From the NCBI GenBank assembly GCA_003165315.1, contig PLSX01000210.1:17617-81616 (forward strand): DNA of 64,000 bases, in the 5' to 3' direction. The stretch is from Acidobacteriota bacterium. GTDB lineage: Bacteria; Acidobacteriota; Terriglobia; UBA7540. Shown in pieces: positions 6,295 through 31,330 of this stretch (its first letter is position 1; the number at the start of each line of letters is the position of its first letter). Under the pieces are notes generated by a model that saw only the letters and a program-made list of their open reading frames with translations, ran no database searches and was not told where the DNA came from. Both the position numbers and the translations under genes were made by a program.

Positions 6295-6525
6295 TATTCG
6301 AAATCTCCTGGAGCTTTCTCTGAAAGCTCGATCTGCAACCTGTTGTCTATTAACCCCAACTGCCGACAGGCCACCCCAGCGCAAGTAGACATTGTAATAT
6401 ATAGTGGGGCATTGGGAGATTTAAAAGGGTGCTACTCCACAATTTTAAATTAATCGATCTCCTTGAAGCTGGTTGCCCGCGCAACTCCGCACTAAATTTT
6501 AGATGCGTTCTCTCGGAGGAAAGAT

Positions 6526-7497
6526 ATGGAATTTCGCATACTTCCCAAGACCGGAATTAGGGTTTCCCGCCTCTCATTCGGTACGATGACCTTTGGCGCA
6601 CAAGCTGATGATGCCACTGCGAAGCGCATTATCGATTGCTGTTTTGACGCGGGAATTAATTTTATCGACACCGCCAACGTCTACAACCGCGGCGTGGCAG
6701 AATCGATTGTGGGCAAGACCCTCAAGGGCCGGCGCGACAAGGTTATTCTGGCCTCAAAGGTTCGAGGCAAGATGGGGGACGCGACCGACGAAGCAGGTCT
6801 GTCGCGCGCCGCCATGCACAAGGCCATTGATGCCAGTCTCACGCGCCTTGGAACCGATTACGTCGACCTCTACTACCTCCATCAGCCCGATTATGAAACC
6901 CCCATCGAGGAAACGCTGGAAACCATGGAAGAACTCGTGCGGGCAGGCAAAGTGCGCTTCCCCGCCGTTTCCAATTATGCCGCGTGGCAGGTTGCGGAAA
7001 TCCTGTGGATATGTGAAAAACGTGGCTACCACCCTTATTTCATTTCCCAGCCCATGTACAATTTGATCGCAAGAGGCATCGAGGATGAATATCTTCCCTT
7101 CTGCCAGCGCTTCGGCGTTGCGGTGGTTCCTTATAACCCACTGGCGGGAGGATTGCTTACCGGCAAGCACTCTTGGCATAACGGACCGGCTCCCGGAACG
7201 CGTTTTGACGGCAATAAGATGTATCAGGATCGCTACTGGCTTGATGACGATTTTGCTGCTGTGGAGGAGCTGCGTGCAATCGCGGCAGAAGCCGGGAAAA
7301 CGCTGGTGGAACTGGCCTTCCAGTGGCTCCTGACCCAATCCGCCGTCGATTCAATTATTCTCGGAGCCTCGCGCCTGGAGCAGCTCCAGGAAAACCTGAA
7401 GGCTGCCGATGGACCAAGATTGGATCAATCCGTACTGAATCGCTGCGACGCAGTGTGGAAGCGGCTGCGAGGCATCACGCCAAAATACAATCGGTGA
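6526..7497 (+). CDS. Aldo/keto reductase
   Basis: MEFRILPKTGIRVSRLSFGTMTFGAQ...FIDTANVYNRGVAESIVGKTLKGRRDKVILASKV...DLYYLHQPD; AKR family signatures. Confidence 0.93.
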   Translation: MEFRILPKTGIRVSRLSFGTMTFGAQADDATAKRIIDCCFDAGINFIDTANVYNRGVAESIVGKTLKGRRDKVILASKVRGKMGDATDEAGLSRAAMHKAIDASLTRLGTDYVDLYYLHQPDYETPIEETLETMEELVRAGKVRFPAVSNYAAWQVAEILWICEKRGYHPYFISQPMYNLIARGIEDEYLPFCQRFGVAVVPYNPLAGGLLTGKHSWHNGPAPGTRFDGNKMYQDRYWLDDDFAAVEELRAIAAEAGKTLVELAFQWLLTQSAVDSIILGASRLEQLQENLKAADGPRLDQSVLNRCDAVWKRLRGITPKYNR

Positions 7498-29575: not shown

Positions 29576-29611
29576 GATTGCCCTCAAATCCGCCCGGATA
29601 ACAGCTGGTGC

Positions 29612-30085
29612 CAGGAGTTAGGAGTTAGGATTCCGACCACTCCTGTATACCACCTGCTTCGGCCTCGGGTCCCCAAGGCACTTTCCCCGGTATTTGATGC
29701 GGTCGACTTTTCCAGTTCCATTGTTTTCAACAACTTCTCGGGATATATCTGCAAGGGCAGAAAATAGAAGTCAGAAGTCAGGAGCTAGGAGTTAGAATTT
29801 GGACGCCTCCCGCTTGCCGCTGGCTTCGGGGCTCAGGCATCCAAGCATCTTTCCGAGCAACTGGCGTGTGCACTTTTTTCCGTTCCTTTGTTTTCATCAA
29901 CTTCTCGGGTTATCCCAGCAAGGAGGGAATCCAGGAGTCAGGAGCGAGGAGTTAGAATCAAGAACGCTCCTGCACGCCCGCCTACTTCGGACCTCGGTCC
30001 CCCCGGCATCTTTCCCGGCATTTAGCGCGTACGCTTTTACCCGTTCCTTTGTTTTCATGAATATCGCCGGATGCACCTTCATTTT
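29612..30085 (+). repeat. Three degenerate tandem copies of a ~160-bp unit
   Basis: Units begin CCAGGAGTTAGGAGTTAG (29611), TCAGGAGCTAGGAGTTAG (~29778), CCAGGAGTCAGGAGCGAGGAGTTAG (29931); each includes CTTCGG, CTTTCC.G and TTCCTTTGTTTTCAT-like blocks. Confidence 0.75.
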
Positions 30086-30588
30086 TCAACTCCACGGCTC
30101 GCTCCTCGTACGACTTTTTGCCCACAAATTTAACAATTTGCCTGCGTGTGCTCGATAATTTGTCATGCGTCTTTCCATCGAGTGTCCCATCAGTCGAGCC
30201 GTGCTGCGATCCGCCCCCGCTCCTGCCGAGTCCCGAGTCCTTTAAAGCCTACACTAGAGCCTAGGATTTGTCAAGGAAATTCGCGCCACCTTCCTATGGA
30301 CGGCAGCGCAGTGCCCGCTCTCCGGCGCTGCGGTCCTTCCAGGATGACGCCACTTGTGCGGCGCGCAAAATTCCTGCCCAGTTTGTTCTGATGGGTCGTG
30401 GAACAAGAACTGCTTGTTGGTTGGGTGCACCCCTCTTTTCGGAAAAGCCGCAGGGCCGGAGAGCGGGCCCTGCGTTACAACCGGGCATTCTTTTCGGTGG
30501 GAAACAGGCTGCGAGGCCCGGCGGCGAAGCGCCAGCCCACCCGCCGAGGAGAACCCACGCAATCCCATTTAGATTGACATTTCAAGTC

Positions 30589-30652
30589 GCCAACTTCGGT
30601 AATGAATGCGCGTAGGTATATATACCTACGCGCATTCATTACCGAAGTTGGC
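30589..30652. repeat. Perfect 64-bp palindrome, no spacer
   Basis: GCCAACTTCGGTAATGAATGCGCGTAGGTATA|TATACCTACGCGCATTCATTACCGAAGTTGGC; arms are exact reverse complements (32+32). Confidence 0.98.
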
Positions 30653-30703
30653 AAGATGCCCTATAAATTATCGCTATGGGCGCGATGAGATAAACTCTTG
30701 GCT

Positions 30704-30731
30704 TAGACATTGGTATATATACCAATGTCTA
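30704..30731. repeat. Perfect 28-bp palindrome with the same GGTATATATACC core
   Basis: TAGACATTGGTATA|TATACCAATGTCTA, exact reverse complement. Confidence 0.97.
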
Positions 30732-30873
30732 GTACCGTGGCGCGCGTCCGGCGCTTTCATCAGCCGGGGCGGGCCGGGTGAGGGAGTCTCGCCTATTGTC
30801 GATTCTTATCTGTGACACCACACTAGCTGCATCTTCACAGGGTGGCAAGCCAATCCGCGGAAGGTATGGAGCC

Positions 30874-31132
30874 ATGACCATCCAAGTGGAACTCAATCCG
30901 GAATTGGGAGCGCGACTAGCCGCCCAAGCTCGTGCTCAAGGGATGCCGCTTGAGAGGGCGGCGGCACGCATTTTGGAAGAGGCGATGGCTTCCCAGTTCC
31001 AGACCCCCCTCAAGTCTCACCCTCGGTGATTTCCACGCGATGCTTACCTCTATGGCGGAAGGTTCGGAGCATTTGCCGAATCTTTCAACTAAGAGTTTCA
31101 CGCGTGAAAGCTTCTATCAGGATCGTGACTAG
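30874..31132 (+). pseudogene. Antitoxin-like small protein split by a frameshift
   Basis: Frame 1: MTIQVELNPELGARLAAQARAQGMPLERAAARILEEAMASQFQTP; then frame 2: PSSLTLGDFHAMLTSMAEGSEHLPNLSTKSFTRESFYQDRD*. Shift at or near a C6 run (31004-31009). Confidence 0.6.
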
Positions 31133-31160
31133 TGTAGTGTCCAGTAATTGGCTGGACAAT

Positions 31161-31210
31161 GTAGCGCCGCCCTTTAGGGCGGCACATGCCGGGCTAAAGC
31201 CCGGCGCTAC
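31161..31210. repeat. REPIN-like three-stem palindromic element
   Basis: Outer GTAGCGCC (31161-31168)/GGCGCTAC (31203-31210); inner hairpins GCCGCCCT-TT-AGGGCGGC (31166-31183) and GCCGGGCT-AA-AGCCCGGC (31188-31205). Confidence 0.9.
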
Positions 31211-31236
31211 GCCGCAAGCAGTGTCCATTTATTTCG

Positions 31237-31286
31237 CGGCTGGCGCAGACTCTTGCCTTTGAGAGTCTGCGATCTCCCGAAGGGAC
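31237..31286 (+). repeat. 50-bp REP-like element, left of RAYT
   Basis: CGGCTGGCGCAGACTCTTGCCTTTGAGAGTCTGCGATCTCCCGAAGGGAC; hairpin GCAGACTCT/AGAGTCTGC. Confidence 0.9.
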
Positions 31287-31330
31287 GTTTTCTTCCGTGC
31301 CACGCGGGGAGGAGTATACTCTCGTCCGCC

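Follow-up and report, generated by a model that had tools for sequence, protein, structure and literature searches.

Paired perfect palindromes in an Acidobacteriota genome: a probable orphan operator of an AbiE-type toxin-antitoxin locus

Palindromes that are perfect over 28-64 bp are generally believed to disappear quickly. Why is one of 64 bp, without any spacer, found in the genome of an Acidobacteriota bacterium, and to what does it belong? The question concerns the window, that is, the whole 64,000-nt stretch of contig PLSX01000210.1 analysed here, in which the preliminary description had reported such a sequence.

Two palindromes with a common core

The report of a perfect, spacerless palindrome was exact: its arms (30589-30620 and 30621-30652) are 100% complementary. 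In 64 kb of the window's composition, a perfect palindrome of 64 bp has a chance expectation of 5e-15. Overlooked at the time was a second palindrome of 28 bp to its right, which is the key to the element (Table 1). After these two, the longest palindromes of the window measure 16 and 14 bp. Palindromes 1 and 2 are both centred on the same 12-mer, GGTATATATACC, which the 6.19-Mb genome contains nowhere else. Beyond this core their arms are unrelated, and a search of the genome for the 32-nt arm of palindrome 1, with up to three mismatches allowed, found no second copy.

Table 1. Features of the palindrome region (positions in the window)
Feature	Position	Strand	Remarks
TTGACA, possible remnant -35 box	30574..30579	+	just 5' of palindrome 1; matching -10 weak (GGTAAT at 18 bp)
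Palindrome 1, left, operator-like	30589..30652	.	64 bp, perfect, spacerless; compared with the family
Core GGTATATATACC of palindrome 1	30615..30626	.	12 bp, one of two genomic copies
Linker separating palindromes 1 and 2	30653..30703	.	51 bp
Palindrome 2, TAGACATTGGTATATATACCAATGTCTA	30704..30731	.	28 bp, perfect, spacerless
Core GGTATATATACC of palindrome 2	30712..30723	.	97 bp from core 1

The core-to-core distance falls within the 51-231 bp that separate neighbouring palindromes at the intact loci described below. The window therefore shares with these loci the presence of at least two spacerless palindromes with a common core at this spacing. Palindrome 1 is the longest of the family, whose remaining perfect members reach at most 42 bp. 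No conserved sequence was recognised in the linker.

An assembly or fold-back product, which had been put forward as an alternative, is very unlikely, its probability being close to nil. The assembly is admittedly one of 285 contigs, with 92% completeness and 7% contamination. However, unique sequence lies on both sides of the palindrome, and an artefact would not yield another palindrome that shares the 12-bp core and lies at the spacing of the family.

The unique stretch that holds both palindromes (30531-30736) is flanked by repeat families present on many contigs. To the left (29607-30530) are intergenic repeat families whose copies, about 70-84% identical, occur on many contigs of the genome. 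Directly 3' of palindrome 2, a repeat of about 90 bp (30737-30828) has some 16 copies on other contigs (81-94% identity), and its first 50 bp are shared by every genome of the genus that was searched, as well as by three further genomes of the family. A hairpin repeat at 31129-31239 (GTAGCGCCGCCCTTTAGGGCGGCA / TGCCGGGCTAAAGCCCGGCGCTAC), with many copies in the genome and in relatives, adjoins an IS200-like Y1_Tnp (RAYT-type) transposase gene at 31328, 0.7 kb from the palindromes, and is probably the REP-like element of this RAYT. The island also contains what remains of a small antitoxin resembling HicB/RHH (Pfam HicB, E 0.0098, which misses the cut-off) and a MazE/AbrB-like antitoxin paired with a PIN toxin. 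The preliminary description had this gene content right (a broken antitoxin, a RAYT and a vapBC-like pair), but none of these genes is the partner of the palindrome to which it linked them. An operator of the HicB/RHH remnant or of the MazE-PIN pair was rejected, as no such palindromes are tied to genes of these types at the loci examined. What the palindromes belong to is an AbiEi/AbiEii pair, which the window lacks.

Occurrence upstream of AbiE genes

Among 61 relatives, only G011, G018 and G053 also contain the 12-mer. There it always centres a perfect palindrome of 24-42 bp, with differing arms, and G018 and G053 each have several such palindromes within 93-231 bp. The G011 contig (L068) carries a lone, orphan palindrome of 32 bp, GGATGCACTGGGTATATATACCCAGTGCATCC, at 6508-6539, without AbiE genes; the contig ends 1.1 kb further.

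In seven loci (G053, G018, L052, L053, L056, L057 and L058) the palindromes are followed by a gene for a protein of 284-319 aa, with which a second gene is convergent, the 3' ends of the two overlapping. The second gene encodes an AbiEii toxin (PF08843, E 3.5e-21 to 1.8e-25 in three loci). As to the first, PADLOC AbiEi models match all 18 members of the antitoxin alignment, while Pfam AbiEi_1 matches only 8 of the 18. Searches with the antitoxin against NCBIfam and against the sequences of solved structures gave no match. A fold search ranked the AbiEi structure 6y8q first, though the match is weak and the antitoxin model used for it is poor (pLDDT 55). In Lactobacillales and plasmid relatives, the toxin and antitoxin genes are divergent and the palindromes lie between them. 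The partner of the palindromes in the intact loci is thus a rare clade of type IV AbiEi/AbiEii toxin-antitoxin systems, with convergent genes (divergent in Lactobacillales).

The association was also seen in searches that differ in how far they depend on the palindrome. A scan of 84,980 species for GTAGGTATATATACCTAC returned 10 stretches, four of which have two palindromes 61-103 bp apart (Spirochaetes, Candidatus Sabulitectum and one further bacterium); because the scan used the motif itself, it is biased as a test of association. An antitoxin profile, run against 396 genomes from the phylum, matched strongly in three of them (G053, G178 and G260), each with palindromes directly upstream. 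Nine other genomes of the phylum contain the 12-mer once each, in no case inside a palindrome of at least 16 bp. Palindromes are also found upstream at all 24 plasmid loci detected by tblastn with the antitoxin, and in all four genomes of two other phyla that were reached through an antitoxin match. Together with G178 and G260, and leaving out G053 and the loci found by the motif, this makes 30 loci identified independently of the palindrome, every one of which (30/30) has at least one long palindrome upstream. Seven phyla are covered: Acidobacteriota, Spirochaetota, Bacillota, Bacteroidota, Pseudomonadota, Planctomycetota and Campylobacterota.

Control regions behave differently. In four AbiE operons with both genes on one strand (L074-L077), no palindrome reaches 12 bp. 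None of this class is found in the toxin promoters of convergent loci, and only 1 of 2700 shuffled upstream regions contained a palindrome of at least 22 bp. At two loci, L072 (in G260) and L156 (a Sulfurimonas plasmid), an AbiEi-type antitoxin gene and palindromes are present, with no recognised AbiEii toxin in the stretch examined.

The antitoxin promoter of an intact locus usually contains at least two spacerless palindromes, each about 28-32 bp long. The core varies by lineage (GTATATATAC, GTACGCGTAC, GTATGCATAC, GCATGCATGC, GTGTATACAC or CATATATG) and mostly alternates purine and pyrimidine. Inspection by eye shows that, for most palindromes of the Firmicutes plasmids, TTGACA or TTGACT is followed at about 17 bp by a TATAAT-like box with which the left arm begins; a TAnnTTTG motif adjoins the palindrome in Bacteroidota (also by eye). 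Such a position over promoter elements is the one expected for an autorepressor.

Since the palindromes lie in the antitoxin leader or promoter, and some of them cover the ribosome binding site (L070, L069), they might instead act as transcribed hairpins, for instance as an attenuator, an mRNA stability element or an RNase site. This is quite improbable. The sigma70-type loci hold the -10 box within the left arm, which would therefore escape transcription from the promoter it belongs to. An RNA stem tolerates G-T pairs; these are in no excess over A-C mismatches (1 vs 6 in sites scoring at least 10; 16 vs 21 with a looser cut that admits chance sites), and Rfam gave only a meaningless hairpin match under the gathering score.

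Seven phage contigs (L168, L219, L228, L231, L325, L065 and L066) also carry single perfect palindromes, 30-34 bp long and with GGTATATATACC at the centre, in or near intergenic gaps; in L065 and L168 the palindrome lies just 3' of a coat-like gene, and there are no AbiE genes. Relatives of these contigs were searched, and no empty-site comparison was obtained. A phage decoy or phage element was rejected for want of enrichment, palindromes of 24-34 bp with unrelated centres occurring about 4 times per Mb in phage contigs.

It is improbable that the window pair is a mobile-element product or a chance template-switch product unrelated to AbiE, generated either by the RAYT gene at 31328 or by repeats nearby. 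Long palindromes with the same core in phage contigs lacking AbiE genes would fit such an origin, as would the location of the region between two sets of repeat families. However, the phage cases fit the general palindrome background (nine others of at least 24 bp, with unrelated centres, in 2.27 Mb), whereas the rare common core, the pairing and the spacing of the window pair all match AbiE operators. In addition, the 64-bp palindrome is single-copy in the genome, unlike REP sequences and in spite of the nearby Y1_Tnp gene, and a REP/RAYT site was rejected on this ground.

Symmetry of the arms

Across the 79 sites compared, Watson-Crick pairing amounts to 97-100% at positions 2-12 from the centre and 84-90% at positions 13-14, then about 50%; the sites were selected by at least 10 net pairs, so that pairing is partly forced up to position 10 and not beyond it. 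In the GGTATATATACC group (10 promoters with 20 sites, the window included), positions 10-16 carry about 0 bits of information, yet are 80-100% paired. At positions 7-14, the two arms of a palindrome pair at 97%, while arms swapped between the two palindromes of one promoter pair at only 36%. Symmetry is thus maintained in this group independently of sequence. Several Firmicutes and the Lactobacillales present a different picture, with an arm sequence common to both sites, as in ordinary operators.

Plasmids of Streptococcus suis offer a glimpse of how such arms may arise. Between pSH0918 and pBM407, the distal palindrome goes from 26 to 34 bp through a 1-nt deletion and one substitution, by which the right flank becomes an exact mirror of the left flank. 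HN105 has the pSH0918 length, and the BM407 state is therefore probably derived. Its lengthening, a single event, has the shape expected of template switching at an inverted repeat. In HN105, the toxin and the antitoxin are each annotated as two pieces, and both palindromes are lost, with none of 16 bp or more left. From this single case, the palindromes seem to be retained as long as the genes work.

The likeliest cause of the outer arms in the GGTATATATACC group would be that one arm is repeatedly copied onto the other by template switching (quasipalindrome correction), while selection on the operator would preserve the core and its two-fold symmetry. Taken by itself, such template switching, illustrated here by one event, leaves the clustering of arm length at 28-32 bp unexplained.

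A less probable account is that of a structure-specific site. An extruded cruciform or single-stranded DNA hairpin, with a stem of 12-14 bp and a 4-nt TATA loop, would be read at its tip, and the stem could have any sequence, the arms being selected for pairing only. The free but paired positions 10-16 and the failure of swapped arms to pair agree with this, as do the sharp drop in pairing at positions 15-17 and the alternating purine-pyrimidine cores, which open easily. Furthermore, the central dinucleotide, the would-be loop, is the position most often unpaired (it is paired in 51 of 62 sites outside Lactobacillales), and the single strands of the two window palindromes fold as hairpins (-38.1 and -9.9 kcal/mol). 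On the other hand, palindromes of 28-32 bp extrude poorly in vivo, the arm sequence conserved between the two sites in Firmicutes and Lactobacillales is that of an ordinary duplex operator, and template switching yields symmetry without selection on structure. That the symmetry itself is the signal, with the antitoxin reading a cruciform or DNA hairpin by its conserved tip on a stem of arbitrary sequence, appears rather unlikely to us. If it were true, expression of the toxin-antitoxin genes would respond to supercoiling or to the presence of single-stranded DNA, as when a plasmid or phage enters the cell.

The pair as a probable orphan operator

Neither AbiE antitoxin nor toxin profiles match anything in the window, even at E<=1, and a profile search of the whole genome (assembly 92% complete) gave no trace of AbiE genes. 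As no AbiEi-type antitoxin gene lies directly 3' of the palindromes, the window does not hold a complete AbiE locus. The lack of AbiE genes, combined with the pair of palindromes, points to an operator that lost its genes. We therefore consider it probable, mechanism included, that the pair is the orphan, and probably relict, operator/promoter of a convergent or divergent AbiE-type (type IV) locus. The first option of the preliminary description, that the site is functional (for instance bound by a protein), is supported by the core, pairing and spacing that recur before antitoxin genes in seven phyla.

Operator function is inferred from the position of the palindromes, their overlap with promoters and what is known of AbiEi proteins. 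The antitoxin, with a winged-helix N-terminus and an AbiEi C-terminus, would form a two-fold complex on the palindromes, covering the -10 box or start site, and would thereby repress its own promoter. Sequence specificity would reside in the core. In the window, the AbiE genes would have been lost, leaving an operator now flanked by repeat elements.

Some observations sit uneasily with a relict. The two palindromes of the window are undamaged, and palindrome 1 exceeds all others of the family in length, which is unexpected of a long-dead relict, given that those of HN105 decay. Gene remnants are absent, and it is the pair itself that would suggest relict status. The promoter boxes in the window are weak, a further point against this reading. 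The intact state of the palindromes speaks for either a recent loss of the genes or another use of the site, such as binding by an AbiEi protein encoded outside the 92% complete assembly.

Whatever its state in the window, this family of regulatory sites keeps long perfect palindromes in seven phyla, and in one group their self-complementary arms are of free sequence. Either it is a rare operator read by its structure, or nature has here left a clear trace of DNA being copied from one arm to the other. The palindrome motif can be used to find this AbiE clade, and the window suggests that AbiE control regions may outlive their genes.

In Streptococcus agalactiae, AbiEi binds two inverted repeats, IR1 and IR2, in PabiE and autoregulates the operon (PMC3985639). 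As in the loci described here, the repeats are in the AbiEi promoter, over the -35/-10/start region. They are, however, gapped (11 bp-N27-11 bp, or 23 bp-N3-23 bp with four mismatches) and present once per promoter, and abiEi and abiEii form one same-strand operon (PMC3985639). The clade described here departs from this canonical type in that its palindromes are spacerless, mostly perfect and usually at least two per promoter, and its genes convergent or divergent. The AbiEi-type antitoxin Rv2827c of Mycobacterium tuberculosis also binds inverted repeats in its promoter and represses it (PMC7319586). The Rv2827c/Rv2826c promoter has four 23-bp inverted repeats arranged as two pairs, which resembles the two palindromes found here, but its half-sites are 13 bp apart and share a sequence consensus (PMC7319586), whereas the arms of our palindromes differ in sequence and have no spacer. 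Finally, two papers on quasipalindrome template switching (PMC7202029, PMC3820800) describe mutation hotspots at which multi-base changes make the arms of inverted repeats identical, and the BM407 change takes the same form. Where these papers present quasipalindromes as mutation hotspots, the operator family described here appears to display the end state across phyla, namely perfect arms of free sequence.
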